The position numbers were made by a program, and so were the translations under genes. From assembly GCA_902727865.1 (NCBI GenBank), contig CACVAQ010000102.1, positions 1 through 40,218 on the forward strand: 40,218 nt of DNA, in the 5' to 3' direction. Position 1 is the first letter of the stretch. Every line of letters begins with the position of its first letter. Under the pieces are notes generated by a model. The model saw only the letters and a program-made list of their open reading frames with translations, made no database searches and was not told where the DNA came from. Positions 7,791 to 28,857 of this stretch are shown in pieces. Origin of the DNA: an uncultured Aureispira sp. GTDB lineage: Bacteria > Bacteroidota > Bacteroidia > Chitinophagales > Saprospiraceae.

Positions 7791-8219
7791 TTAACAATTA
7801 TTTTTAACCATTGACGTAACATTCAGATTTACCTGTCTTTTATAGCTGTAACCATCCATCAGTTTTTTAACCAAAAGAATGCCCAAGCCTCCAACCTCTC
7901 GATCTTCCAAAGGAATCGATATATCTGGTTCAGGCGTCTCAAAAGGATTAAACGGAATTCCTGCATCTGTCAATTGAATAATCAATTTTCCAGTTGTAAA
8001 TAATTCTATTGTAATATCAATTTCATACTCTTGCCCATCAGGAAAGCTATACTTAACGATATTGGATAACAGCTCGTCTAATACAACATTTACCTTTACC
8101 ATAATGGTATTCGGAATGGTGTACTGCGATGCAAAAGTCTCAAACGCACTAATCGCCCGTTGTACTTCCTTTATGGTATTCTTTATTACGATTTTTTTTG
8201 AATGTATTTTACCCATCAT
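7791..8219 (-). CDS. RsbW/SpoIIAB-like anti-sigma serine kinase (HATPase)
   Basis: This 142-residue protein is a single GHKL ATPase domain of the partner-switching type. Visible motifs are the N-box VVLDELLSNIVKYSF (about residues 45-59), the G1 box DAGIPFNPF and the G2 box VGGLGILLVKKLMD. These kinases bind a sigma factor or other target and phosphorylate a STAS partner. The ATG directly abuts the TAA of the SpoIIE phosphatase gene (TAAATGATG), so translation is probably coupled; a second ATG follows immediately. With the phosphatase and the STAS protein upstream it completes an RsbU/RsbV/RsbW-type module. No sigma factor gene lies nearby, so the target is unknown. Confidence 0.88.
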   Translation of the reverse strand: MMGKIHSKKIVIKNTIKEVQRAISAFETFASQYTIPNTIMVKVNVVLDELLSNIVKYSFPDGQEYEIDITIELFTTGKLIIQLTDAGIPFNPFETPEPDISIPLEDREVGGLGILLVKKLMDGYSYKRQVNLNVTSMVKNNC

Positions 8220-9047
8220 TTATTCTTTTATTTCAACACACAAAGCCGTTATATCATCAAATTGTTCTTCTCCACGTTCGAATAATAAAATATCCAAAAC
8301 AATCCTTTCCACGGTGTCTTTTACATTTTTAAACGGTCGTTTTAAAGAGTCAAACAATCGAGTTTCTGAAAACAACTCTAAAGCACTGTTGTGTGCCTCT
8401 GTAATACCATCTGTATACGCAAAAATAACATCTCCAACAGACAAAGAAACGACAGATTCTCCATAGACAATATCTTCCATTGCAGCGACGACGGGGCCAT
8501 GCAATGTAGACAACTTGACTAAGGTGCCATCTTTCTGAAGAATCAATGTTGGATTATGCCCTGCGTTGGTATACGTCATTTCTTTTTTAGCCAAATCAAT
8601 AATTCCCATGAATACCGTAGTAAACATATAGTCGGGATTATTGGCGGCCATCTCCTGATTCACATGGCTCATAATGCTTGCCGTTGAAAAATCAGTTGCG
8701 GCCCTTGATTTTAACAAGGCCTTGCCTACAGCCATCATAAACCCAGCTGCAACACCTTTTCCAGAAACATCGCCCACTACGATTGCCAATTTATTATCAT
8801 CTAATAAATAATAATCATAGAAATCCCCCCCTACTTCTCTAGCAGAAATCAACTTTGCATATAACTCCACGTCAGAACGTCCTCCAAAATCAGGATGACT
8901 GATAGGAATCATATTCAGTTGAATATCTTTTGCTAGATTCAGCTCCGCTTCCATGCGCACCATCTGCTCCTTCAAAAGCGCAATTTTTTGCACTTGTTGG
9001 GCTACAATATTGGCAGTATCCTTAGATTCGTTTGCTTCTTTACCCAT
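8220..9047 (-). CDS. SpoIIE/RsbU-type PP2C serine phosphatase
   Basis: This 275-residue protein has an N-terminal coiled coil (about residues 12-42, VQKIALLKEQMVRMEAELN) and then a SpoIIE-class PP2C domain. Metal-binding motifs are all present: EVGGDFYDY, VVGDVSGKGVAAGF, the YTNAGHNP turn, FAYTDGITEA and a final FDDITALCVEI. Enzymes of this class dephosphorylate the STAS anti-anti-sigma protein and so activate it. There is no PAS, GAF, REC or membrane input domain, only the coiled coil. Its input must therefore come from another protein, plausibly the chemosensory genes just upstream. It lies 30 bp after the STAS gene. Confidence 0.92.
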   Translation of the reverse strand: MGKEANESKDTANIVAQQVQKIALLKEQMVRMEAELNLAKDIQLNMIPISHPDFGGRSDVELYAKLISAREVGGDFYDYYLLDDNKLAIVVGDVSGKGVAAGFMMAVGKALLKSRAATDFSTASIMSHVNQEMAANNPDYMFTTVFMGIIDLAKKEMTYTNAGHNPTLILQKDGTLVKLSTLHGPVVAAMEDIVYGESVVSLSVGDVIFAYTDGITEAHNSALELFSETRLFDSLKRPFKNVKDTVERIVLDILLFERGEEQFDDITALCVEIKE

Positions 9048-9077
9048 TTTTTAATTTATAATATCAAATGATAATTT

Positions 9078-9410
9078 TTAGTTAAAATTTGTCACGGCTT
9101 CTTCCAAAGATTTTTTCACATCTAGAATTTGGCTAAAGCCAGAAATATCCAAAATTTCTTGAACCACCTCATTTGCATTACAAATTCGGAACAAGCCTCC
9201 TGATGCTTTAAGTTTTTTAGCCGTTCCCAAAAAAACACGTAACCCAGCACTACTAACAAAAACGGTCTTAGCTAAATTAAAAATAATTTTCTGATTACTT
9301 TCTAAATACTTATTTACTTCCATTTCTGCTCTAGGAGCAGTTCCCGTATCTAATTGACCAACAAAATCTAAAATCAACATATCTTCTTTTGTTGTACTTA
9401 CGATATCCAT
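9078..9410 (-). CDS. STAS-domain anti-anti-sigma factor (RsbV/SpoIIAA-like)
   Basis: This 110-residue protein is a complete single STAS domain. The sequence runs through DFVGQLDTGTAPRAEMEVNK, then IIFNLAKTVFVSSAGLRVFLG. The phosphorylatable serine is expected within VSSAGL (Ser53 or Ser54). In partner switching the unphosphorylated form binds the RsbW-like kinase and frees its target; the SpoIIE phosphatase restores that form. It lies between cheR and the phosphatase gene, so the chemosensory and partner-switch genes are contiguous on one strand. Confidence 0.92.
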   Translation of the reverse strand: MDIVSTTKEDMLILDFVGQLDTGTAPRAEMEVNKYLESNQKIIFNLAKTVFVSSAGLRVFLGTAKKLKASGGLFRICNANEVVQEILDISGFSQILDVKKSLEEAVTNFN

Positions 9411-9498: not shown

Positions 9499-10341
9499 CT
9501 ATTTATAATTCAAATTTTTCCTGTAAATTCTAGTTTTTGAACAATGCAAGGTAAACATTTCTTTAGATTTATAAGGCAGCATATCATAATAACCTATTAT
9601 AAAGAAGCCATCATCCGCCAATGCGTCATAAAAAAGCTTTAAAACCTTCATTTTTAAAACTCGATCGAAATAAAGCATCACATTTCTACAGAAAATAATT
9701 TTAAAGCGTTCTCCCATTTCATCCTGCACCAAATTATGGCGTTCAAACCGAACATGTTTTTTTAGTTGTTTAATCACCTCAAAGCTCTGCTCCTGTTTAG
9801 AAAAATAACGGTCTACATTCCCTTCGGGATTGTACAAAGCATACGATTTGGCACATTTGTCCCAGATAATATTATTGTAGCGTCCTGCCTTTGCTTGAGC
9901 AAGTGCTTTCGTACTTAAATCGGTTGCAAGTATCCTTGACTTATGCAACAGAAAACGTTCTTTCAAGACTATACCCATGGTATAAATTTCTTCTCCAGTA
10001 GAACAGCCTGCATGCCAAATCGTTAATTCATTCTGATAACCGACTTGTTTAAGAACATCTTCTTTTATTTTTTGCCACAAATCATAATTCCTAAAAAACT
10101 CTGTCAAATTGACCAGAAGTTCATCTATATAAGATATGATTAGTGATTTGTCTCTCAACATTTGCGCCCATAAGCCAAGCATCGACTCCAAATCTTTTTT
10201 TGAAATCAGCCGCACCAAACCTCTTTTCAGCGACTTTTGTTCATAACGTGTAAAGTCCAACCCAAAACGAGTTTTTACGGCTGTCGTAAACGCATTTAGC
10301 TCCTCATCGGTTATTTGTAATCGTCCAGGTTTTTGTAGCAT
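9499..10341 (-). CDS. cheR: CheR chemoreceptor glutamate methyltransferase
   Basis: This 280-residue protein has the usual CheR order. An N-terminal helical domain (ITDEELNAFTTAVKTRFGLDF) is followed by LLVNLTEFFRNYDLW and a SAM-binding methyltransferase domain with the glycine motif HAGCSTGEEIYTMG and the late motif IIFCRNVMLYFDR. CheR adds methyl groups from S-adenosylmethionine to glutamates of chemoreceptors during adaptation. There is no TPR tail, so this is the minimal form. The ATG lies two bases after the stop of the CheX/CheC-like gene, so the two are translationally coupled. The receptor in this cluster is the obvious substrate. Confidence 0.94.
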   Translation of the reverse strand: MLQKPGRLQITDEELNAFTTAVKTRFGLDFTRYEQKSLKRGLVRLISKKDLESMLGLWAQMLRDKSLIISYIDELLVNLTEFFRNYDLWQKIKEDVLKQVGYQNELTIWHAGCSTGEEIYTMGIVLKERFLLHKSRILATDLSTKALAQAKAGRYNNIIWDKCAKSYALYNPEGNVDRYFSKQEQSFEVIKQLKKHVRFERHNLVQDEMGERFKIIFCRNVMLYFDRVLKMKVLKLFYDALADDGFFIIGYYDMLPYKSKEMFTLHCSKTRIYRKNLNYK

Positions 10342-10343
10342 GT

Positions 10344-10943
10344 TTAGACACTAACCCTTTTAATATCGTCAATAAAAGAGTTGTCCATAAACCATAAAAA
10401 CATAGGGCTAAATGATTTTTCTTTTGCCAAAAAGTTAGTCTTAAAATTAATAACATGCGACTGGTCGTCTAAACGATCCTGTATAAACCCCTCAAAATCA
10501 CCAGAATCAATAGTATCCAACTGAGGGACAGCACCGTGCATTTTTCGTTTTAATAAATTGGCAAATTGAGTAATCACTGCTGCTGCAATGATATTATCAA
10601 CCTCCAATAAAATAGCATCCTTCATCGTTTCAAACAAAACAGGATCGTTCGTTACTTCAGGAGGCAAGGCTGCTTTTTGTAACATTTCAGCTTCTTTATC
10701 TGTAAAGATCAAACAACAAAGCCCCTCTAATTCTCCGACCACTTCTGTTGTCAGCAAATGCACTTTCCCAGTACATCCTAATATTAAAGGCGTTTTATCT
10801 GCAATGCCCAAATTACTGACACCTATTTGGTCAACTACGATTGGTTCTTTCATAAAGAAAGAAAGTGTTTGCGCAGCACTACTCAAACCTTGATTTATAA
10901 TAGTTTTAGCGGTCTGCATTTCTGTTTTGTTAAAAACTTCCAT
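10344..10943 (-). CDS. CheX/CheC-like chemotaxis phosphatase
   Basis: This 199-residue protein resembles the CheC/CheX/FliY class that dephosphorylates CheY-P. One E-x-x-N catalytic motif is visible in AILLEVDNIIAAAV, preceded by strands such as LILGCTGKVHLLTTEVVGELEG that fit the alpha/beta fold. Only one motif is clear; CheC normally has two and CheX one, so I call it CheX/CheC-like. The C-terminal 60 residues or so (from GDFEGFIQDRLDD) look like a family-specific extension. Its position between cheA and cheR supports the role, since these enzymes replace CheZ in many bacteria. Confidence 0.7.
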   Translation of the reverse strand: MEVFNKTEMQTAKTIINQGLSSAAQTLSFFMKEPIVVDQIGVSNLGIADKTPLILGCTGKVHLLTTEVVGELEGLCCLIFTDKEAEMLQKAALPPEVTNDPVLFETMKDAILLEVDNIIAAAVITQFANLLKRKMHGAVPQLDTIDSGDFEGFIQDRLDDQSHVINFKTNFLAKEKSFSPMFLWFMDNSFIDDIKRVSV

Positions 10944-10972: not shown

Positions 10973-12772
10973 TTAGCCCAATGTAGCGATGTTTGTCCCG
11001 ATTCGTTTTTCCTTAAATAAATGCGAAAGAATACTAACAATATCGAGTACCAAACACATTCTCCCTGTTCCTAAAATAGTTACGCCGCTAAACAGAGCGA
11101 CATTATCAATAGGTGAAGGCAATTTCTTTTCCACAATTTCCTTCTGCTGCATCAATTTATCTACCACCAAACCGACCAAGCGATTATTATAACTTACGAT
11201 AACAATATCTAAATTAGGGCTGTCTTCCATTTGGTCGAAATGTTTATGCAAACTTCCTTTTGCGTCTAAATCCTTCATAGACTCTAGGTCAAACAAATCT
11301 TTTAGAAATACAATAGAAATTGTTTTGCCCAAATAAGTAGCAATTAAGCCCGTATTAATTTTATGAATTTCTTCCTTAGGCATCGAAATCACGGCTTCGG
11401 TATGAGCCAAAGCGATCGCAAATTCTTGCTGATCCAGTTGAAATAGCAAGGCCGCTTTAACGGCCATAGAAGAAGGCAAACCCAATGTAAAGGTTGTCCC
11501 TTTCCCTAGTTCTGTTTCTACCGAAATTTTACCTCCAATAGATTCAACGGCCATTCTTACCACATCCAATCCAACACCTCGTCCCGATATTTCGGTCACG
11601 ACTTCAGCATTAGAAAATCCTGGTTCGAATAAGCACAATAAAATTTCTTCTCTTGAAATAATAGGTGCATATTCCTTTGGAATCAAACCTTTTGCGACTG
11701 CCTTTTTCTTAATTTTATCTACATCAACGCCATGTCCATCATCACTAATTTCAATATAAACCGTATCCTTCTCATTTCTAGCCCTCAAGGTCACTGTTCC
11801 TTGCTCAGGTTTCCCCAACTTCAGGCGTTCTTCTGGAGGCTCAATACCATGTCCAACAGAATTTCGAACTAGATGCACCAAAGAATCACTCATCGTCTTC
11901 AACACGTTTCGATCAATCTCACTCTCTGTCCCCTCTAAAACCAAATCAACTTTCTTATGCTCGATCACCGCTGCATCTCTCAACACTCGATGAAATTTGT
12001 TAAATAAGAAACCAACTTGTACCAAGCGGACATCCATGACACTATATTGTAAATCTGATGTCAAGCGATGCAAACGAGCCATATCACTATTCATTCCTTT
12101 TTCTGCCGCTCGCTGCGCAATCAAAGTATCTTTTTCTATAATCAGTTCTCCTACAATATTCAGCAATTCATCTAACTTTCGGACAGGAACTTGTACCATA
12201 TCCGAAAGGATAATTTTATGTCCTTTATTTTCCCCCTCCTCTTCCTCAAATACATTCGGTTCACTTAGAAGTAGATCTTCTGCTAGTTTTTTTTCAGCCT
12301 TATCTAAAGGATTTTCAGTAGCGTTGGTCTTGTTGGTTAACGCTTCTTCTGTTTTAACAGGATTTTTTTCATTTTCAGCCTCGTGATAAGCTTTCGCTTT
12401 GCGCAAAGCGACTTGGAGTTTGGTGCGAATTCCTTTATAGCGAACCTTCGTTCCTGTTTTAACCGCTTGAATCAAGTCTCCTAAAATATCATTCGCTCTA
12501 AACAAGGATTGAAACAAGACGCTATCTAAAGTCACCCGTCTTAATTTCACTTCATTAAAAATATCCTCCATTACATGACTCAACTCAGCAATGGCATCAA
12601 ATCCCATCCCCATAGCATTGCCTTTGAGCGTATGCGTTATTCTAAAAATGGCGTCAATAGCAGGTCGGCTTTCGTTATTTTTCTCCAATTCCGTAAACAG
12701 ACGATTCAGCTCTTCATAGCTCTCTTCTGCTTCTGCTAGAAACATTTCTTTATATTCCTCTTCTTTTGCCAT
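10973..12772 (-). CDS. cheA: CheA sensor histidine kinase
   Basis: This 599-residue CheA starts with an HPt domain holding the phosphorylated His47 in ITHTLKGNAMGMG. An acidic linker follows, with no recognisable P2 CheY-binding domain. Next come the dimerisation helices (PVRKLDELLNIVGELIIEKD), the HATPase domain with the N-box LVHLVRNSVGHGIEPPEERL, the G1 box EISDDGHGVD and the G2 box ISGRGVGLDVVRMAVESIGG, and a C-terminal CheW-like P5 domain. It autophosphorylates in receptor arrays and passes phosphate to the CheY and CheB encoded just upstream. The N-box residue after NSV is Gly rather than Asp (usually NSVDHGIE), which is worth noting. It lies 135 bp downstream of cheB. Confidence 0.94.
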   Translation of the reverse strand: MAKEEEYKEMFLAEAEESYEELNRLFTELEKNNESRPAIDAIFRITHTLKGNAMGMGFDAIAELSHVMEDIFNEVKLRRVTLDSVLFQSLFRANDILGDLIQAVKTGTKVRYKGIRTKLQVALRKAKAYHEAENEKNPVKTEEALTNKTNATENPLDKAEKKLAEDLLLSEPNVFEEEEGENKGHKIILSDMVQVPVRKLDELLNIVGELIIEKDTLIAQRAAEKGMNSDMARLHRLTSDLQYSVMDVRLVQVGFLFNKFHRVLRDAAVIEHKKVDLVLEGTESEIDRNVLKTMSDSLVHLVRNSVGHGIEPPEERLKLGKPEQGTVTLRARNEKDTVYIEISDDGHGVDVDKIKKKAVAKGLIPKEYAPIISREEILLCLFEPGFSNAEVVTEISGRGVGLDVVRMAVESIGGKISVETELGKGTTFTLGLPSSMAVKAALLFQLDQQEFAIALAHTEAVISMPKEEIHKINTGLIATYLGKTISIVFLKDLFDLESMKDLDAKGSLHKHFDQMEDSPNLDIVIVSYNNRLVGLVVDKLMQQKEIVEKKLPSPIDNVALFSGVTILGTGRMCLVLDIVSILSHLFKEKRIGTNIATLG

Positions 12773-12907: not shown

Positions 12908-13984
12908 TTACGCCAAACAACTCACTAAAAAAGCAGCAATTTCGTCCAAATGAACCACTTGCTTTACGGCCTCCATTTCAACAGCCGCTTTAGGCATTCC
13001 ATAAACGATACAAGACGCCTCACTTTGTGCAATCGTGTAACTTCCCGCAGCTTTCATTGCCTTCAAGCCTATTGCACCATCTTTGCCCATTCCCGAAAGA
13101 ACAACACCAATAGCCCTTTTTTTATACGTTTTTGCCACAGAAAGCATTAGGGCATCAATAGAAGGATTATTATATGCTACAAATTGTTCTTCAGTTACTG
13201 CAAAGACATAGCTTCCTTTTTTACGTTCTATCGTCAGATTTATATCCCCTGGTGCCAAATAAACATTCCCAGCGATCAATTTAGCTCCTTGCTCAGCGAT
13301 ACTAACCTGCAATGGCGTCAATTGATCCAAGCGACTTGCAAAAGCAGCCATAAAACTCGCTGGCATATGTTGTGCAATAACAACTGGAATCGTTAAGTTC
13401 TTAGGCAAGCGTGTCAATATTCGCTCTAAAGCACGTGGTCCTCCTGTAGAAGCCCCTAAGACAATGCAATCATAAGAAATGAATTTGTCAAAAGAATGTT
13501 CATGAATATTGGATGTGATAGGATTTTTTAGCACTTCTTCTAGATTAATCGTGCTAGCTACCTTTATTTTTTTAATTAAATCTTGTTTTACCTCATCCAT
13601 ATTCACCCGATTCTTAGCAGGTTTATTCAGGTAGTCAATTGCCCCCAACTTCAAACCTTCCAATATAGGGTCCATATCTACATTACCTATAGAAGATAAT
13701 ATAATAATGGGAGTAGGACAATGCTTCATAATCTCTATGACGCCATAAATACCATCATACTCTCCCATATTAACATCCATCAAAACAACATCAGGTTTCA
13801 ACTCTTCTGTTGACACATAAGCTGATTTACCATTATTGACTTGTCCTACAACATCAATATCGGGGTCCGTATTAATAATATCATTGATTAGAATACGCAT
13901 CAATGCAGAATCATCTGCGATGAGTACCCGAATCTGTTTTTTCTTGTTCACGGTACCTGATTTAATCTTGCATTTCTTTGTCAA
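12908..13984 (-). CDS. cheB: CheB receptor methylesterase (REC + catalytic domain)
   Basis: This 358-residue protein has a receiver domain (RVLIADDSALMR, phosphoacceptor in VVLMDVNMGEYDG) and a C-terminal methylesterase domain. The latter has the Ser nucleophile region LGASTGGPRALE, the QHMPASFMAAFASRL His segment and the VVLSGMGKDGAIGLKAM Asp segment. It removes methyl groups from receptor glutamates and competes with CheY for CheA phosphate. The annotated ATG overlaps the end of cheY by 23 bp. A GTG at codon 12 (GTVNKKKQIRV) is an alternative start that would avoid most of the overlap; the receiver domain begins after either. Confidence 0.95.
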   Translation of the reverse strand: MTKKCKIKSGTVNKKKQIRVLIADDSALMRILINDIINTDPDIDVVGQVNNGKSAYVSTEELKPDVVLMDVNMGEYDGIYGVIEIMKHCPTPIIILSSIGNVDMDPILEGLKLGAIDYLNKPAKNRVNMDEVKQDLIKKIKVASTINLEEVLKNPITSNIHEHSFDKFISYDCIVLGASTGGPRALERILTRLPKNLTIPVVIAQHMPASFMAAFASRLDQLTPLQVSIAEQGAKLIAGNVYLAPGDINLTIERKKGSYVFAVTEEQFVAYNNPSIDALMLSVAKTYKKRAIGVVLSGMGKDGAIGLKAMKAAGSYTIAQSEASCIVYGMPKAAVEMEAVKQVVHLDEIAAFLVSCLA

Positions 13985-14330
13985 TAACCTCTAATAAACT
14001 CTCTGTTGTAAAGGGTTTGACAATGTAAGCCGCAGCACCTAAACTCATGCCTTCTTGAATCACAGAATCTTGGCCAACGGCACTAATCATAATGACTTTA
14101 GATGGAATATTTTCATCCTCTTTTAATACCCTCAAAATATCTGTACCAATCATATCAGGTAAGATATTATCTAAGGTAATTAAATCTGGTAGTAAGTCCA
14201 AAGCCATGTCAATTGCCGATTCTCCATTGGCAGCCTGTCCGACTACTTCGTACCCAGCTGCTGTCAAAGCAGAATTAATCATTGTACGCATGTACAAGGA
14301 ATCATCTACAATTAAAACTCGTTTACTCAT
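13962..14330 (-). CDS. cheY: CheY-like single-domain response regulator
   Basis: This 122-residue stand-alone receiver has the acidic pair D9-D10 in LIVDDS, the phosphoacceptor Asp54 (LITLDNILPDM), the switch Thr/Ser region in MISAVGQ and the conserved Lys in YIVKPFT. It has no output domain, so it acts by protein-protein contact. The organism shows no flagellar genes here, so the target is not necessarily a flagellar motor; gliding control or the neighbouring partner switch are candidates. It overlaps cheB and follows the STAS-like array after a 134-bp gap. Confidence 0.9.
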   Translation of the reverse strand: MSKRVLIVDDSLYMRTMINSALTAAGYEVVGQAANGESAIDMALDLLPDLITLDNILPDMIGTDILRVLKEDENIPSKVIMISAVGQDSVIQEGMSLGAAAYIVKPFTTESLLEVIDKEMQD

Positions 14331-14464: not shown

Positions 14465-14887
14465 CTACTTTTTATTCTCTTCTAGTTGCTCTAACAACCA
14501 TTTTATTCCCGCTTCTTTTTTTGTAAAAAGCTTAATCGGTACAGATCTTCCCATTTCATTTGGTTTTCCTCCAAAGAGTTTAAAATATAAATTCCCCATT
14601 ATTTTGGCCCCATATGAATTTAAAACCAACGCTCGGGCAACCTCACCTAATTCAATATTTTGATAAAAATCAAGTATATCTTTACTCGTATGTTTATCTG
14701 CGACTTCAATATAAAGCGCTTTGTCCTGTTTATTATCAATTAACTTTTTAAGTTTTTCGGTATCCCTTTTTACAATGTCTAGCGTATCTGCTTCATTCCA
14801 ATCTTCGTTATCTACTATTTCTATAATATTATCAGACCTTAATATATAGCTTACTATAGTTGCTTTAATAATTTGTACTGTTTCCAC
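14465..14887 (-). CDS. STAS/SEC14-like paralogue 1 of 4
   Basis: This 140-residue protein belongs to a tandem family of four in this cluster. The shared order is a beta N-terminus, an N-[ED]-D-W turn (IVDNEDWNEADTL), a helix, a strand with E-V-A-D-K-H, then LGEVARALVLNSYGAKIMGNLY, the invariant G-K-P-N-E-x-G-R, a PIKLFTKKEAG strand and a final helix IKWLLEQLEE. The fold pattern and the PxKLFTxxxxAxxWL ending resemble small SpoIIAA-like/STAS-SEC14 proteins of Bacteroidota. No DSxG-type phosphoserine motif is evident. It is the copy nearest cheY. I infer a regulatory or scaffold role. Confidence 0.72.
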   Translation of the reverse strand: METVQIIKATIVSYILRSDNIIEIVDNEDWNEADTLDIVKRDTEKLKKLIDNKQDKALYIEVADKHTSKDILDFYQNIELGEVARALVLNSYGAKIMGNLYFKLFGGKPNEMGRSVPIKLFTKKEAGIKWLLEQLEENKK

Positions 14888-15223
14888 GGAATGTATTTTT
14901 AGGCTACATTTAGTACTTCATCACAACCTAGTCTACATAATATAATATAGTAGTGTATTGAAGCCTATTGTTTGTTCTCTTTTTGTTCTTGAAGTTATTT
15001 AAGAATAAGCTACCATTTCACAGAAGGCATCTAATCTCAGCGAAATCCTTACCATTTCTAGTGTATGTACTTCCATTATAACACTTTTTTTCAAAAAAAA
15101 ATATTTCATCGACACAAAACGGTTCGCTTTTATTTTTTTCTATTTCTTGAAGAATGTCGTTTTAGCGAAAAAAATAGACTCTATTTTTTAACGACTAATT
15201 TTGTTCAACTATTTAAATAAAAT
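14888..15223. other. 336-bp spacer within the STAS-like array
   Basis: This spacer holds no convincing gene. It contains T-rich runs and, next to paralogue 2, a short perfect hairpin at 15169-15189. The size suggests that paralogue 1 has its own promoter or leader rather than being tightly coupled to paralogue 2. Confidence 0.6.
15169..15189 (-). terminator. Possible terminator or attenuator after STAS-like paralogue 2
   Basis: A 9-bp perfect stem (AAAAAATAG/CTATTTTTT) with a 3-nt loop lies 35 bp past the stop of paralogue 2. The stem is very AT-rich, so it may only attenuate. It splits the array into an upstream and a downstream transcript if active. Confidence 0.45.
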
Positions 15224-15646
15224 TTATTGTTTTGCTCTTTTTACTTCCTGCAACAACCATTTAATGGCTTCTTTTTTTTTCGTAAAAAGCTTAATCGGAA
15301 CGACTCGTCCTGCTTCATTTGGTTTTCCTCCAAATAATTTCAAATATAAATTCCCCATGATTCTCGATCCAAAGGAATTGATCAATAAAGCTCGGGCAAC
15401 TTCTCCAAATTCAACCGTTTGATAATAATGAATGAGCTCCTTGCTAAGGTGTTTATCTCCGACTTTAATAAAAACACCTTTACTTCTTTGTCCTTCAACA
15501 AGTTTTTTAAATAATAAAGTATCCTGTTTTGCAGCGTCCAAAGTATTGGGTTGATCCCAATCCTCATTATCAGATATTTCTACAATATCATCTAGTCTTG
15601 ATAGATAATTTACGATGTTTCCTGTTACTATTTTTTCTTTATCCAT
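15224..15646 (-). CDS. STAS/SEC14-like paralogue 2 of 4
   Basis: This 140-residue protein is the closest relative of paralogue 1. It shares ISDNEDWDQPNTLDAAK, the KVGDKHLSKELIHYYQ segment, FGEVARALLINSFGSRIMGNLYLKL, the invariant GGKPNEAGRVVPIKLFTKK and the terminal helix AIKWLLQEVKRAK. Differences are spread along the sequence, which points to old duplication with maintained function rather than a recent copy. As in the other copies there is no signal peptide or membrane segment, so it acts in the cytoplasm. Confidence 0.72.
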   Translation of the reverse strand: MDKEKIVTGNIVNYLSRLDDIVEISDNEDWDQPNTLDAAKQDTLLFKKLVEGQRSKGVFIKVGDKHLSKELIHYYQTVEFGEVARALLINSFGSRIMGNLYLKLFGGKPNEAGRVVPIKLFTKKKEAIKWLLQEVKRAKQ

Positions 15647-15849
15647 AGCGCCTATATATTCAATCCGTTTATACCATCAAGACTTCGTCAAGCTTCGTTT
15701 TAGATATAGCTGCTTAATTTTCAAGCGCATATAATTTAGCAACAGCACCTTCGTCAGTATCCTTAGATGCTCTCTGACTGCGTAATTGCTCCCATCATCT
15801 TCAAAGGATATCAAATCGGCCTACGACTAGGCGACGAATTAACCTTCTT

Positions 15850-16266
15850 TTATTTATTTTCAGCAGCGTCTATTTGTTCAAATAGCCAGGCTTCAGCCAC
15901 TTCTTTTTTGGTAAAAAGTTTCATTGGAACAATTCTTCCTGCTTCGTTTGGTTTTTCTTTTGATAATTTAAGGTATAAATTACCAATAACCTTAGCTCCA
16001 TAAGAAGTCAAGAGTAATGCTCTCGCAACTTCCCCCCACTCAGCAGCCTGATAACAATCCAACAGTTTTTTTTCTATATGTCTATTCGGTACTTCAAACA
16101 AAATAGCTCTATTCGGTTGACCACCAAAAACTTCTTTAATGGCTGCTATATCTTTTTTTATCGTTGTGAGGGTATCTGGGTCCGTCCAGTCTTCATTATT
16201 AGATGCATGGACAATACCATCTGGTCTTAAGGTAATCGTCAACGCACCTGTTTTGTACTCTTTCAT
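15850..16266 (-). CDS. STAS/SEC14-like paralogue 3 of 4
   Basis: This 138-residue member of the array has HASNNEDWTDPDTLTTIKKD, FEVPNRHIEKKLLDCYQ, WGEVARALLLTSYGAKVIGNLYLKL and the ending AGRIVPMKLFTKKEVAEAWLFEQ. It differs from copies 1, 2 and 4 in having SKEKPNE rather than FGGKPNE before the conserved turn. The gene lies 203 bp upstream of paralogue 2 and 44 bp after paralogue 4. The part of the spacer at 15647-15849 shows no gene. Confidence 0.72.
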   Translation of the reverse strand: MKEYKTGALTITLRPDGIVHASNNEDWTDPDTLTTIKKDIAAIKEVFGGQPNRAILFEVPNRHIEKKLLDCYQAAEWGEVARALLLTSYGAKVIGNLYLKLSKEKPNEAGRIVPMKLFTKKEVAEAWLFEQIDAAENK

Positions 16267-16310
16267 TGGGACATTTTTTAACTTTTATGCTTTCCTATTT
16301 CTTTCTATAA

Positions 16311-16691
16311 TCATTCCTCAGCTTCTTTGTTTTTTATAAAAAGTTTCACAGGAACGACCCTCCCCGTTTCATTTGGTTTTCCTCCAAATAATTTCAAATA
16401 TAAATTCCCCGTCACCTTTGCACCAAATGAGTTTAAAAGCAAGGCTTGTGCAACAAGGCCTGCTTTAGTAGACTGATAATAATTTAAGACCTCTTTAGAT
16501 GCATGTCTATTGGGTATTTCAATCCAACAAGCTCTCGCTGGATTTTCATCTGTAAGTGTTTTAATTATAGCCATAATTTTCTTTGCATTTTCCAAGGTTC
16601 CACCCCCCTTCCAATCGTCATTCGTAAGTAAGGCTATAATATCATCGTCTCTCAAGACAATCGTCATTTCATCTGTATGATACTCTTTCAT
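16311..16691 (-). CDS. STAS/SEC14-like paralogue 4 of 4, C-terminally short
   Basis: This 126-residue copy is the first of the four to be transcribed. It keeps LLTNDDWKGGGTLENAKK, EIPNRHASKEVLNYYQ, LVAQALLLNSFGAKVTGNLYLKL and FGGKPNETGRVVPVKLF but ends KNKEAEE. The terminal W-L-x-E-Q helix present in the other three is missing. Reading the following bases in the other two frames does not restore that helix, so this is a true truncation or a specialised short form, not a simple frameshift. It also has GLVAQAL where the others have GEVARAL. Confidence 0.7.
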   Translation of the reverse strand: MKEYHTDEMTIVLRDDDIIALLTNDDWKGGGTLENAKKIMAIIKTLTDENPARACWIEIPNRHASKEVLNYYQSTKAGLVAQALLLNSFGAKVTGNLYLKLFGGKPNETGRVVPVKLFIKNKEAEE

Positions 16692-16883: not shown

Positions 16884-17417
16884 CTAAGGATAAGCCGTTT
16901 TTACCCCCTCAGACTCAATTAGTTTTATCATATCAATCAGAATAATCATTCGGTCCCCTACATTTACCACCCCCATCAAACAACTTGCATCCAATGTAGA
17001 ATACTGAATTAAGGTAGACGCTTTATCAATATCATCTACTTCAATCGTCAAGGTATTGGGAACTTCTTTGACTAAAATACCGATCTTAAAATCAGCATTT
17101 TCGACAACTAAAGTATAATTCTGTGTCAATCCTTCTCCTAAACCTTCTCCCAAACCAAACTTCTGTTCTAGGTCCATAATAGCAATAATGCTCCCACGGA
17201 TATTGGCGACTCCCTTGATATAAGGAGGCGTTTGTGGCATTCTCGCAACTCTAGGAGTCAAGACAACTTCTTTGATTTGGTCAATCGAAAGTCCATACTC
17301 CTCTCCAGCCAATTTAAAAATAATCAACTGCATTAATTCCGATTGCTCTTTGCTTTTCTGATGGTTCTCGGCCTCCCGTTGAACATCTTCTATAGTATAT
17401 TCTGTTTTGTCAGACAT
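16884..17417 (-). CDS. cheW: CheW receptor-kinase coupling protein
   Basis: This 177-residue protein has a 28-residue polar N-terminus and then a full CheW domain. Typical features are MQLIIFKLAGEEYGLSIDQIKEVV, the PQTPPYIKGVANIRGSIIAIMDLEQKFG core with the N-x-R-G-x segment, and the final GVVNVGDRMIILIDMIKLI. CheW links the receptor signalling tip to CheA. The insertion LGEGLGEGL after the core helix is a small direct repeat. The gene starts 27 bp after the receptor gene ends, so the two are co-transcribed. Confidence 0.94.
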   Translation of the reverse strand: MSDKTEYTIEDVQREAENHQKSKEQSELMQLIIFKLAGEEYGLSIDQIKEVVLTPRVARMPQTPPYIKGVANIRGSIIAIMDLEQKFGLGEGLGEGLTQNYTLVVENADFKIGILVKEVPNTLTIEVDDIDKASTLIQYSTLDASCLMGVVNVGDRMIILIDMIKLIESEGVKTAYP

Positions 17418-17443: not shown

Positions 17444-19852
17444 CTATTGCAATTTAAACTTCGAAATACTCTCTTGAAGCTGATTCGCCACATTGGCCAA
17501 ATCCTCACTGGTTGCCGTGACTTCATTCATTCCTTGGCTCAAGACTTTACTAGAACTTGCAACTTGTTCTGTTCCAGAAGCGGTTTCTTCAGCCACCACA
17601 ACAATTTTCTCAATATTTTTAGCGGTTGCATGAATGGATTCTTTTTGTCCTTCTGTTGCTTCCACAATTTCTTTAGACAAATCAAGTGTTTCGTGACTTG
17701 CTTTTTCGATACTTTCAAATACAAACTGTGCTTCTTTAGAAGCTTTCATGCCACTTTTTACATTCGACTCCATGCTATCAATTGCCTTGGACGCCACGTT
17801 AATATCTTTTTGAATTTCTCGAATTACTTTTTCAATATCAACAGCAGATTTTTTAGAGCCTTCTGCTAACTTTCGGATTTCTTCTGCGACTACCGCAAAG
17901 CCTCGTCCAGCATCTCCAGCTCGAGCCGCTTCAATCGCAGCATTCAAAGCCAACAAATTGGTTTGTGCGGCAATATCAGTGATAACACTCAAAGCACTTG
18001 CAATTTCTTCAGAACGTTCCGACAGAATTTCAATCGAATCAGACGTACTAACCGCTGAATCTTGGATTTCATTCATACTATTCGCTACCAGCTTAATGGT
18101 AGACAAACCTTCCGAAGAGTTTTTCTGTCCTTCTACAGCCGATTCGTTAATCAAGCCAGCTTTTTGAGCCATGACCGTAACTGTTTTAAGCACATTATCC
18201 ATCATCTTACTAGCTTCGTCCGTCTGTTGTGCTTGTTGCTGAGCGCCCTCTGCCATTTGTTGTGTTGCAGAAGCGACTTCCTGCGTTGTATTTTTCATCT
18301 CCTCTCCCTTCACCAACATTTCTTCCGCAGAAGCTGCTACTAAATTTCCAATTTGTGAAATTTGCCCCATCAATACATTAATACTATCAATCGCTACATT
18401 TAGTTCATTTCCTAACTTCTTGATATCACCTTCTATAAATGAATCAAAACGCTCCGTCAAATCTCCGTTGGCCAAAGCCCCTACAATATCACTAATTTCC
18501 ATGATAGGCATCGCAACCGACTCTAACAATAAGTTAACCGAACTTGCCAATTCCTTCCAATCGCCAGTTGCTTGACTTGCATCCAAACGAGCGTCTAACT
18601 TCCCCTCTTCTCCTGCCGAAACAATGACTTTATTAATTTCGTATAAAAATTGTTTTTGAGGCGTAATGTCCGTCGCAATTTTGACGATTTTATCAACAAC
18701 TCCTTTGTCATTTTTAACAGGAGCATAAATTGCTTGAATCCATAATTCTTCGCCATTTCGTTTGAATCGTTTAAAATCCGCACTTTGGCTATTTCCCTTT
18801 CTTAATTCTTCCCAGAAGCTATTATACGTCTCCGAATCCGCATACCGATCCTCTAGAAACAGCCTATGTTTTTGTCCTATTAATTCTGAGGCATCAGTAT
18901 ATCCAAACAGATGCAAAAAATTGGTATTAACATCAAGAATTGTTGAGGAAGCATCAAATTCTATCCTCGCAAAAGAACCATCTATTGCTGTTTTTAGACT
19001 AGTAGCATTGATAGCGTCTTCCTTTTCTTTTGTAATATCTGTTGCTATTTTGATAATACGAATAACAGAACCATCCTTGTTTAATAAAGGAGTGTAGCTA
19101 GATTGAATCCAAACCTTTTCACCATCTTTCGCAAGTCGCTGAAAAACACCATCTTGCGTAATTCCATTTGCTAAATCTATCCAAAAGTGTTCGTACTCAT
19201 TAGATAGTTTAAATTCTTGTTCAACAAATATAGAATGATGTTTTCCAAGCAATTCATCGGCATTCTCATAGCCCATTATAGAGACAAAATTAGAATTGAC
19301 ATCTAATATTTTTCCATTAACATCAAATTCTATTCTTCCAAAAGAGCTGTCAATTGTCTGTTGCAATAAAGCTTCGTAATTATTTTCGTTTCCAGATGTC
19401 ATATTTTGACTGGGGTTTTCATCGACTGGGTCAGCCTGTTTATCAACTGGATCAGTCTCTTCAGTTACTGAGTCAGTCTGTTTAGTTACGTTATGTGAGG
19501 ATAAGATTTCTTCTTTGGTCTCCAATATTAAATCTATGATATCTTCAGTAATATCGTTCTCGATATCAGAAGCATCCAAAGCCATATCTAAATGACCTAT
19601 AAAAGCATTAAAGTGTGCGATTTGAATTCCTAGGTGGGCGTGCGCTTTATGGAGTTGTCCTTCCATTTTGTAGGCACCTTCTATCAATAGTGTCTCTAAA
19701 AAACTAACAATTTTTTGTTTGAGCCAATTAATGTCTGTTTTTTCAAAAAATGGACTTAATTCAATATCGTTTAAGATACGTTCATACCAATGATCTACGA
19801 TTCTGGTTAAGCTTGATTTGCCTCCAATTTTATCTAGCAGTGTCTTTTCCAT
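17444..19852 (-). CDS. Soluble chemoreceptor with truncated haemoglobin, two PAS domains, HAMP-like region and MCP signalling domain
   Basis: The track begins at a TTG (19873); I choose the ATG at 19852, which gives 802 residues and starts [11 protein letters not shown], exactly where truncated globins begin. Residues 1-115 align without gaps to the core of group 1 truncated haemoglobins: Tyr23 at B10, Leu44 at E7, Ile48 at E11, and the proximal F8 His71 in KAHAHLGI. A linker with repeated TD-x-V units follows. PAS1 (about 160-280) and PAS2 (about 285-405) are paralogous, each ending KIATDIT. A HAMP-like helical region (about 405-510) leads to the methyl-accepting domain, with the hairpin tip [21 protein letters not shown]. 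There is no transmembrane segment, so it senses inside the cell, plausibly O2, NO or redox. Confidence 0.92.
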
Positions 19853-20332
19853 AATAAGATAGAAGAAAAGCAACTGGTAAACCTATTTAGCATGATAGAA
19901 TGTCCTAAGTTCTAACATTACAAAAAACCCCCGTTCTTTTAAAAATAGACTATACCAGTTGCACTATTACATTCAAATATATAATATGTTATTTAATAAT
20001 ACAAATTAATGCTTTATAATATCGAAATGAATTAAAAAACATTTTTTTGATCAAATTTCATGTTTAATGCCTAGTGATAGGATTGTTTTGTGTTTTGGGT
20101 ATAAAATCGATTTAAAGCTAAATTCTAGGTGGATAATATATGTAAAGCACCTCATTATCATAGAGTAACCGACTTGCACTAAAACAATCCTTTTAAATAT
20201 AAATAAAATTCTGGCATTCTTACAACTTATTCTTACAAATTTAAGTTGACAGCTAAAAACAAGCCTTTCCTCTTTTTTGTTATATAAATTATTTCCTAAA
20301 CTTCCACTTAGCAAGTAGCTTATTTAAACCAA

Positions 20333-24724: not shown

Positions 24725-25531
24725 ATGGAAATCGGAGATTTAGTTCGACACAAAGTATCTATGAAAGAAATGACCGTTATGCGGTTGACTGGAGATGAAG
24801 AAAGTGCTGCTTTTGAGTCTATTGATAGACGAATGCAAACTAAAGGATTCAATATTGGCGATCCGACTTGTATGTGGTTCGAAGGAAGTATTCTCAATTA
24901 TAGTATCTACAAAGCAAGTGAACTTGATGTCTTGGTTTACAAAGGTGCTGCTGGTGCTGCTGCTGCTGACATTGCAACAGACGACGACGATGATGATTTA
25001 GATTTGGACGACCTTGATCTTGAATTGGATGACTTAGATTTGGACTTAGATGATCTTGACTTTGATGATGATTTAGATTTAGACCTTGACTTAGATTTTG
25101 ATGACGACGACTTGGACTTGGATCTTGACTTTGATGATGATTTAGATTTAGATGATTTAGATCTAGATGACCTTGATTTGGACTTGGACGCAGAGGATGA
25201 CTTGGACTTGGATCTCAATTTAGACGACGATTTTGATTTGGATGACTTAGATCTGGATGACGATGACGATTTAGATGATTTAGATATTGACTTTGGCGAT
25301 GATTTGGACTTAGACGACCTTGATTTGGACGATGACCTTAATTTGGACGATGATTTGGATCTAGACGAGGAAGAAGAGGATACGGAAGAAGAAACAGTAG
25401 AAATTGATGACGACCTTGATTTTGACTTGGGAGATGATTTAGATCTTGATTTAGATTTAGACCTAGACGATGGTACTGACGAGGAAGACGACGATTTAGG
25501 CTTGGACTTAGATGACGATGACGATCTTTAG
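24725..25531 (+). CDS. YodC-like domain fused to a long Asp/Leu repeat tail
   Basis: This 268-residue protein has two parts. Residues 1-75 form a YodC-like domain related to the preceding gene (MEIGDLVRHKVSMKEMTVMRL, with DPTCMWFEGS replacing the C-x-W turn). After an Ala-rich hinge (GAAGAAAADIATDDDDDD) about 185 residues are almost only Asp and Leu in a D-L-D-L-D-D pattern with occasional Phe, Glu and Ile. The charge is extreme, so the tail is probably disordered or calcium-binding. The DNA is a degenerate short repeat (GATTTGGAC/GACTTAGAT), prone to length change by slippage. Synonymous codons alternate, so the acidic protein sequence is probably selected. Confidence 0.85.
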   Translation: MEIGDLVRHKVSMKEMTVMRLTGDEESAAFESIDRRMQTKGFNIGDPTCMWFEGSILNYSIYKASELDVLVYKGAAGAAAADIATDDDDDDLDLDDLDLELDDLDLDLDDLDFDDDLDLDLDLDFDDDDLDLDLDFDDDLDLDDLDLDDLDLDLDAEDDLDLDLNLDDDFDLDDLDLDDDDDLDDLDIDFGDDLDLDDLDLDDDLNLDDDLDLDEEEEDTEEETVEIDDDLDFDLGDDLDLDLDLDLDDGTDEEDDDLGLDLDDDDDL

Positions 25532-27260: not shown

Positions 27261-27575
27261 TTACTCAACTGTGATATCAAACTCTTGATAATCTCCGTTA
27301 TCATCTATCGTTTCTACCGTATAAGTACCCTCTGGCAATCCTGCTACAGAAATCACGGTACTCGCTTCTTCTGTATCCAGTTCTATGACTGCATTTCCTG
27401 ATGAGTTTACTATTTTCGTATTCAAATTAGTAGAGGTTGGTTGTTCTATAATAACCTCTGTCATTGCTTGAATTACGGTTCTTGGTCCTCCTTCTACACT
27501 TGCTGTTCCTGCATTGGCAGTCAATGAAAAAGTAAAGGCAATTAATACGGCGATAAAAAGATTTAAGTAGCTCAT
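27261..27575 (-). CDS. Small secreted tail-domain-like protein, array copy D
   Basis: The track starts this frame at 27641, but the three sister genes all begin MSYLNLF; the matching ATG is at 27575 and gives the same 104 residues. A signal peptide (MSYLNLFIAVLIAFTFSLTA, cleavage near NAG) precedes a mature part of about 80 residues. That part looks like the beta-sandwich of type IX secretion tail or DUF3244 domains: VIIEQPTSTNLNTKIVNSSG, then an AGLPEGTYTVETIDDNG strand pair and a terminal EFDITVE. It differs from the others by LNTKIVNSSG and LPEG. It is the last gene of the array. The function is unknown; export to the envelope is inferred. Confidence 0.82.
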   Translation of the reverse strand: MSYLNLFIAVLIAFTFSLTANAGTASVEGGPRTVIQAMTEVIIEQPTSTNLNTKIVNSSGNAVIELDTEEASTVISVAGLPEGTYTVETIDDNGDYQEFDITVE

Positions 27576-27647
27576 TGTGTGTGTGTGTTTGTGTTCGTTA
27601 TTATAATTAGATGAAACATAGGAAACCTTGGGGTGAATCAAAGATTC

Positions 27648-27962
27648 TTATTCAACTGTGATATCAAACTCTTGATAATCTCCGTTATCATCTATCGTTT
27701 CTACGGTATAAGTACCTTCTGCCAATCCTGCTACAGAAATTACAGTACTCGCTTCTTCTGTATCCAGTTCGATGACCGCATTCCCTGATGCGTTTACTAT
27801 TTTCGTATGCAAATTTGTAGCGGTTGGTTGTTCAATAATAACTTCTGTCATTGCTTGAATTACGGTTCTTGGTCCTCCTTCTACACTTGCTGTTCCTGCA
27901 TTGGCAGTCAATGAAAAAGTAAAGGCAATTAGTACTGCGATAAAAAGGTTTAAATAGCTCAT
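27648..27962 (-). CDS. Small secreted tail-domain-like protein, array copy C
   Basis: This 104-residue protein has a signal peptide identical to that of copy D and the same ending. It differs from copy B by only a few residues (for example TASVEGG, AMTEVIIEQPTATN and ELDTEEAS), which shows recent duplication. The mature protein is a single predicted beta-sandwich with no cysteines and a net negative charge. The spacer on its 3' side (27576-27647) is the uninterrupted version of the spacer that holds a mobile element after copy B's stop, upstream of this gene. Confidence 0.85.
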   Translation of the reverse strand: MSYLNLFIAVLIAFTFSLTANAGTASVEGGPRTVIQAMTEVIIEQPTATNLHTKIVNASGNAVIELDTEEASTVISVAGLAEGTYTVETIDDNGDYQEFDITVE

Positions 27963-28013
27963 ATTATTTGTGTTTGTCTGTTTGTTCGTTATTATTAATT
28001 AGATGCAACATAG

Positions 28014-28120
28014 CATTACTCCGTTGAAAACCCGAACTAAGCGTAGCGACCTCACGGATTAACAAAGGCTCAGCGCAGCTAAATCGTATTAGTTCGTAGT
28101 GAACTAATCAACGGAGTATT
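28014..28120. mobile_element. 107-bp non-autonomous (MITE-like) element with 7-bp target duplication
   Basis: The element carries the terminal inverted repeat TACTCCGTTGA (28017-28027) / TCAACGGAGTA (28108-28118) and is flanked by the direct repeat AACATAG (28007-28013 and 28121-28127). The spacer between copies C and D reads AACATAGGAAACCTTGGGGT with no insertion, so the empty site is preserved nearby. The interior holds a TTAGTTC/GAACTAA hairpin and no gene. Confidence 0.82.
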
Positions 28121-28153
28121 AACATAGGAAACCTTGGGGTAAATCAAAGATTC

Positions 28154-28468
28154 TTACTCAACTGTGATATCAAACTCTTGATAATCTCCGTTATCATCTA
28201 TCGTTTCTACGGTATAAGTACCTTCTGCCAATCCTGCTACAGAAATTACAGTGCTCGCTTCTTCTGTCTCCAGTTCGATGACCGCATTCCCTGATGCGTT
28301 TACTATTTTTGTATGCAAATTCGTAGAAGTTGGTTGTTCAATAATAACCGTTGTCATTGCTTGAATTACCGTTCTTGGTCCTCCTTCTACACTTGTTGTT
28401 CCTGCATTGGCAGTCAATGAAAAAGTAAAGGCAATTAGTACTGCGATAAAAAGGTTTAAATAGCTCAT
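28154..28468 (-). CDS. Small secreted tail-domain-like protein, array copy B
   Basis: This 104-residue protein shares the signal peptide of copies C and D. The mature part differs from copy A only at the very start (TTSVEGG versus TTNVEGG) and near the end (EFDITVE versus EFNITVE), so the mature proteins are almost identical. Both have AMTTVIIEQPTSTNLHTKIV and ELETEEAS, whereas C and D have AMTEVIIEQ and ELDTEEAS. The array thus splits into pairs A/B and C/D. The 107-bp mobile element lies between this gene and copy C. Confidence 0.85.
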   Translation of the reverse strand: MSYLNLFIAVLIAFTFSLTANAGTTSVEGGPRTVIQAMTTVIIEQPTSTNLHTKIVNASGNAVIELETEEASTVISVAGLAEGTYTVETIDDNGDYQEFDITVE

Positions 28469-28542
28469 ATTATGTGTTTGTCTGTTTATTTTTTATAATA
28501 TTAAAAAAAAAATATGAAATAGTGAAGCAAATCAAACAATTC

Positions 28543-28857
28543 TTATTCAACTGTGATGTTAAATTCTTGATAATCTCCATTATCATCTATCGTTTCTACG
28601 GTATAAGTACCTTCTGCCAATCCTGCTACAGAAATTACGGTGCTCGCTTCTTCTGTCTCCAGTTCGATGACCGCATTCCCTGATGCGTTCACTATTTTCG
28701 TATGCAAATTCGTAGAAGTTGGTTGTTCAATAATAACCGTTGTCATTGCTTGAATTACCGTTCTTGGTCCTCCTTCTACATTGGTCGTTCCTGCACTGGT
28801 CGTCGATGAAAAAGCAAGTGCAATTAATACTACAATAAAAAGATTTAAATAGCTCAT
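28543..28857 (-). CDS. Small secreted tail-domain-like protein, array copy A
   Basis: This is the first gene of the array in transcription order. It is 104 residues long with the most diverged signal peptide (MSYLNLFIVVLIALAFSSTTSAG) and a mature part almost equal to copy B. The pattern, with a varied leader and a nearly constant mature domain, suggests purifying selection or gene conversion on the mature part. Upstream 422 bp contain the right-hand copy of the flanking repeat and probably the promoter. Confidence 0.83.
   Translation of the reverse strand: MSYLNLFIVVLIALAFSSTTSAGTTNVEGGPRTVIQAMTTVIIEQPTSTNLHTKIVNASGNAVIELETEEASTVISVAGLAEGTYTVETIDDNGDYQEFNITVE

Follow-up and report, generated by a model that had tools for sequence, protein, structure and literature searches.

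The window analyzed here is a stretch of 40,218 nucleotides from an uncultured Aureispira sp., a marine bacterium (GenBank assembly GCA_902727865.1, contig CACVAQ010000102.1). Its minus strand carries a chemotaxis (che) cluster in the order MCP, cheW, four genes of the DUF7793 family, cheY, cheB, cheA, CheC/CheX-like, cheR, STAS, RsbU-like, RsbW-like, and SulP transporter (Table 1). The four DUF7793 genes are tandem paralogues that span positions 14465 to 16691 and are bounded by cheW and cheY; open reading frames and alignment uphold in position, number, and motifs the first-pass annotation of this DNA, which had described four related small proteins at this place. The chemoreceptor at the head of the cluster has no predicted membrane segment by hydropathy. 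It resembles a soluble oxygen or redox receptor. At the other end, the STAS, RsbU-like, and RsbW-like genes (7791 to 9410) extend the che operon, with SulP next, in an order that is the same in other Aureispira che genomes.

Table 1. Genes of the che cluster in the window, with strand and the evidence for each or its condition
Feature	Position	Strand	Evidence or condition
Chemoreceptor (MCP)	17444..19873	(-)	Truncated globin (PF01152), two PAS, HAMP_2, MCP signaling domain (Pfam)
cheW	16884..17417	(-)	Pfam
DUF7793 copy 1	16311..16691	(-)	126 aa; adjoins cheW; truncated at conserved Trp codon (TGA, then TAG)
DUF7793 copy 2	15850..16266	(-)	138 aa, intact
DUF7793 copy 3	15224..15646	(-)	140 aa, intact; above Pfam cut-off; modeled (pLDDT 72, pTM 0.70)
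DUF7793 copy 4	14465..14887	(-)	140 aa, GTG start, intact; closest sister is copy 3
cheY	13962..14330	(-)	REC profile match; 96-98% identical in four other Aureispira genomes
cheB	12908..13984	(-)	Open reading frame and Aureispira genome comparison
cheA	10973..12772	(-)	Open reading frame and Aureispira genome comparison
CheC/CheX-like phosphatase	10344..10943	(-)	Weak family match
cheR	9499..10341	(-)	Open reading frame and Aureispira genome comparison
STAS protein, anti-anti-sigma type	9078..9410	(-)	Pfam; opposite end of cluster
SpoIIE/RsbU-like PP2C phosphatase	8220..9047	(-)	Pfam
RsbW-like HATPase_c_2 kinase	7791..8219	(-)	Pfam

Relative to the first sequence aligned, the four window proteins are 44 to 55% identical. 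Three C-terminal residues are near-invariant in the family alignment (F in 79/83 sequences, A in 76/83, and W in 72/81), and copy 1 has its TGA precisely at the position of this tryptophan, with a TAG two codons on. Truncation at the Trp codon leaves most of the last helix missing, and copy 1 may be decaying or working in a shortened form. The motifs [GE]KPNExGR and LxxSxGxxxxGNLYxKL, which the first reading had reported for every copy, are present in all four, with the refinement that KPNExGR is restricted to the clade of che-locus genes (6/7 che copies against 0/76 other members examined) and is not a feature of the family. Such restriction fits a che-specific contact. The intergenic gaps were checked for decayed DUF7793 copies and held none, and a promoter scan gave a result no better than shuffled sequence.

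All four window copies match Pfam DUF7793 (PF25056) with E values of 5e-6 to 1e-3; copy 3 scores 26.9 and the other three 23.4, 23.9, and 19.2, the curated cut-off being 26. A family profile built with these copies included matches them at E = 1e-33 to 1e-38. Judged by the linked family alignment and tree, the window copies belong to DUF7793 without doubt. Of 395 genomes sampled from the class, 179 contain the family, with up to 11 or more copies per genome; DUF7793 has a solved member (PDB 3bl4), and tandem copies are common in it, as in the window. The window proteins are thus ordinary as members of a large known DUF family in which genes frequently stand in tandem, and what distinguishes the Aureispira che clade from DUF7793 at large is its location in a che operon and its KPNExGR motif. 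NCBIfam and PHROGs searches returned nothing meaningful, a scan of viral contigs yielded no DUF7793 relatives, a search of genome contigs recovered only two Aureispira che copies, both already known, and no paper naming DUF7793 turned up among the literature searched.

A profile of 48 relatives matches chain 3bl4, itself a DUF7793 protein, at E = 1.3e-18 over most of the chain length; a profile from the Aureispira copies alone matched no solved structure, and only the broader profile reached 3bl4. The SpoIIAA-like family PF11964, to which the Shewanella structures 2ook and 2q3l belong, shares its fold class with DUF7793 and is matched weakly by 25 of the 48 members (E <= 0.01, one of them above the curated cut-off), but by none of the four window copies themselves at E <= 1. 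In Shewanella SpoIIAA-like structures, Phe114, Ala120, Trp123, and Leu124 form a conserved cluster (PMC2954212), and the C-terminal F-x5-A-x2-W-L of DUF7793 has the same spacing. An AlphaFold2 model of copy 3, of moderate confidence (pLDDT 72), has the topology E-E-E-H-E-H-E-H-E-H and is least confident in the loop after alpha-3, which bears KPNExGR; Foldseek ranked 2ook first and a Sec14 domain second for this model, both weakly, with no hit at E <= 0.001. The model of the copy from another Aureispira che cluster (G008) is poor (pLDDT 56), and its Foldseek list contains stressosome, SpoIIAA, MlaB, and SiaC chains with no significant E value. In profile-profile comparison, SpoIIAA-like and STAS families scored above REC, HATPase, and CheW, with weak scores near the level seen between SpoIIAA-like and STAS themselves. 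The first-pass annotation had suggested a STAS/SEC14-like fold and named profile-profile comparison and single-copy structure prediction as checks; the 3bl4 and PF11964 matches and the weak 2ook/Sec14 ranking point the same way, as do the order of the profile scores and the alternating topology of the copy 3 model. We therefore regard as well supported the assignment of DUF7793 to the SpoIIAA-like (STAS/CRAL-TRIO) fold class, with alternating alpha/beta structure and STAS-like topology.

This kinship does not make DUF7793 a classical STAS switch protein. In SpoIIAA the phosphorylated serine lies at the start of alpha-2. At the corresponding DUF7793 position, 68, Ser is found in 31 of 83 members, and the rest have Lys, Pro, Thr, or another residue; of the window copies, three have Ser and copy 2 has Glu. 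The STAS anti-anti-sigma proteins SpoIIAA and RsbV (PF01740) share a fold superfamily and weak profile-profile similarity with DUF7793, but no window copy matches PF01740 in the Pfam search, the gene context is different, and the copies have no DSSG-type motif, as had been anticipated from their lack of a clear phosphoserine motif.

The history of the genes was reconstructed from nine congeneric genomes, five of which have the che cluster. Gene order is conserved over these five clusters, which hold 4, 1, 1, 1, and 0 DUF7793 genes between cheW and cheY, at the same spot in four of the five. All seven che-locus copies form a single clade (support, 95/86), so that the window's four descend from one ancestral che-locus gene; two of them are a sister pair (support, 100/97). 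On this tree, the four genes are an amplification of one ancestral che-locus DUF7793 gene in the window's lineage. Core Che proteins of the other clusters are about 70 to 98% identical to those of the window and the DUF7793 copies only 42 to 52%, and across the Aureispira clusters the DUF7793 gene diverges far faster than either the Che or the Rsb proteins. Two clusters, those of genomes G003 and G008, are 99.3 to 99.7% identical, yet G008 has the DUF7793 gene and G003 has 72 bp in its place. A cluster without the gene at such close identity marks the gene as accessory; it was probably lost recently from G003, and DUF7793 is dispensable for keeping the che cluster. Nor is it a core che component in the wider sense: among che clusters it was seen in Aureispira only, and there it is missing from one of five. 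DUF7793 is an uncharacterized family, and the window copies are an expendable, fast-changing local expansion of it.

The window's genome holds 25 DUF7793 copies, distributed over nine places. Of these, 21 lie outside the che locus; they stand singly or in groups of up to six on eight further contigs, with no che genes near. Locus L012 (1430 to 4510), away from che, contains six tandem, closely similar DUF7793 genes, an amplification more recent than that at che. The tree shows the Aureispira radiation as monophyletic, with nearest outgroups that are for the most part members linked to HAMP proteins. That the che location is incidental, given the 21 copies elsewhere, was considered and was overturned by comparison across the genus. 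A related reading makes the che copies chance passengers of a gene family that spreads and multiplies in these genomes, one member having ended up in the che operon with no functional link. The scatter of copies over the genome agrees with it, as do the presence/absence polymorphism, the truncated copy, and the rapid divergence, but passengers would hardly be expected to keep their position in four of five che clusters at so low a protein identity, to form a single che clade with KPNExGR invariant in six of its seven copies, or to co-occur with the che cluster over the nine genomes (five have both and four neither, though the che-less four may be one subclade). The kept position, the single clade, and the che-specific motif together argue for a retained local role, and we consider passengers an unlikely account.

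Outside the genus, the neighborhoods of DUF7793 genes suggest what such a role might be. The first-pass annotation had proposed surveying the surroundings of homologues for che or partner-switch genes; the che link is real within Aureispira, where it holds in four of five clusters and one clade, and does not reach beyond, none of 35 loci from other genera lying in a che cluster. Instead, the neighbor that recurs in other genera lies immediately downstream in the same orientation and encodes a soluble protein whose first ~60 residues are HAMP-like. Such a HAMP-first gene follows 16 of 34 DUF7793 genes but just 1 of the 304 other genes that these loci contain (Fisher p = 4e-17), a count made with an N-HAMP profile seeded from some of these very loci. 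Because of that seeding, 26 new loci were examined as a held-out set, which alone is independent: 14 have a HAMP-first gene downstream on the same strand and a fifteenth has one on the other strand, with several of the 26 being close relatives of each other, so that their effective number is smaller. Pfam identifies the neighbors in the held-out loci as kinases with PAS and, in part, HAMP domains. The effectors are varied, comprising HisKA kinases, PAS/GAF kinases, HisKA_3 kinases ahead of a response regulator, hybrid HK-REC-Hpt proteins, and an AraC-type regulator, and in several loci the DUF7793 and HAMP-first genes overlap by 4 to 50 bp, which suggests coupled translation. In loci L110 to L117, which make up one family (f25), the gene after DUF7793 encodes no kinase but an AraC-type regulator that has a HAMP-like segment at its N terminus. 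Another locus, L130 (6677 to 8437), reads RsbW-like ATPase, two overlapping DUF7793 genes, a 170-residue protein, and then a HAMP kinase and a response regulator; the 170-residue protein has no Pfam match and resembles the DUF7793 pair by eye. In about half of the family's loci no HAMP partner adjoins the DUF7793 gene; among them are an entire clade of 11 rows and, in the window's genome, 21 of the 25 copies. No DUF7793-HAMP fusion was seen, the N-HAMP profile found no HAMP-first protein in Aureispira genomes with DUF7793, and searching the literature for STAS or SEC14 in combination with Bacteroidetes HAMP kinases gave no result. Of the Aureispira loci that were read, only the che-operon copies adjoin a HAMP-containing sensor, the globin-PAS-PAS-HAMP_2 MCP.

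Frequent placement, in various Bacteroidota, directly before a HAMP-first signaling gene suggests that DUF7793 proteins are clip-on regulators of such sensors. We propose that they are small soluble proteins working in trans on cytoplasmic HAMP-first proteins, to which they would supply a separable input or regulatory subunit, possibly by binding the HAMP domain or helical stalk and so shifting effector activity. One ancestral gene would have entered the Aureispira che operon between cheW and cheY and then multiplied locally, and the che copies would now most likely serve as optional accessories that tune the soluble globin-PAS-HAMP receptor or the complex it forms with CheA and CheW. Because the HAMP_2 of the window MCP goes unrecognized by the HAMP-first profile, extending the partnership from kinases to a receptor is our inference, the soluble globin-PAS-HAMP receptor being the likeliest che-locus target. 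The combination of local amplification at che, trans regulation of HAMP-first proteins, and che copies tuning this receptor is our preferred reading, held tentatively and with a chance of being right that we put at not quite even. The broader generalization is more doubtful, namely, that this is a two-gene module undescribed so far, in which a SpoIIAA/Sec14-fold protein supplies in trans the sensor domain that soluble HAMP proteins throughout the Bacteroidota lack, be they kinases, hybrid kinases, or AraC factors, and that a cytoplasmic chemoreceptor array in Aureispira has taken it up as an exchangeable subunit that multiplies.

Ordinarily a HAMP domain passes on the signal of a sensor to which it is covalently joined; if the proposal is true, an N-terminal HAMP and a separate SpoIIAA-like protein would make a detachable input. 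A precedent is SiaC of Pseudomonas aeruginosa (DUF1987), a small STAS-like protein encoded, as DUF7793 is, beside a signaling enzyme; by attaching to the helical stalk of SiaD, a diguanylate cyclase, it promotes the active dimer of that enzyme (PMC8457831). SiaC belongs to a different protein family and is switched by SiaA/SiaB, whereas the partners of DUF7793 have HAMP at their start and comprise kinases, transcription factors, and possibly an MCP. H-NOX is a heme protein with a fold unrelated to that of DUF7793. Its pairing with the histidine kinase HahK offers another case of a separate sensor protein controlling a kinase (PMC12369376). For DUF7793, a widespread family of unknown function, a fold, a solved structure, and one specific kind of partner can now be named, and the Aureispira che clusters present a natural series with 0, 1, and 4 copies.

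Two further readings start from the fold. Like CRAL-TRIO proteins, they could carry or sense a hydrophobic ligand or a membrane surface, their loaded state being read by a nearby receptor or kinase, a role compatible with our preferred one. Besides the fold class shared with Sec14/CRAL-TRIO, such carriers would recall the Shewanella SpoIIAA-like proteins, which have open and closed forms and a nonpolar cavity (PMC2954212), and the che-specific KPNExGR would sit in the loop after alpha-3, adjoining the lid region; model confidence is lowest exactly in that loop, and we think the carrier reading improbable. Alternatively, DUF7793 could bind the cluster's RsbW-like kinase as an extra antagonist or decoy and so link chemotaxis to a stress or sigma switch. 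A SpoIIAA-like fold would suit this task, and the STAS, RsbU-like, and RsbW-like genes share the operon in each of the four che clusters sequenced far enough to include them, but no phosphorylatable serine is conserved in the family and the G003 cluster keeps STAS, RsbU, and RsbW intact without any DUF7793. The reading gains from outgroup locus L130, where the two DUF7793 genes directly follow the RsbW-like ATPase with a STAS gene near; outside Aureispira, however, this is the only locus with an RsbW-like gene near DUF7793, and the chance that such a partner switch operates seems slim to us. As essential functions, the multisubunit relay, titration of the RsbW-like kinase, and scaffold raised at first pass find little support, given the absence of the gene from G003, copy numbers of 0 to 4, fast divergence, and a truncated copy.

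Two other features of the window lie apart from the che cluster. Positions 27261 to 28857 contain four near-identical tandem genes for proteins of ~104 residues with a signal-like N terminus, and positions 24725 to 25531 encode a 268-residue protein whose C-terminal two thirds consist largely of Asp and Leu repeats.
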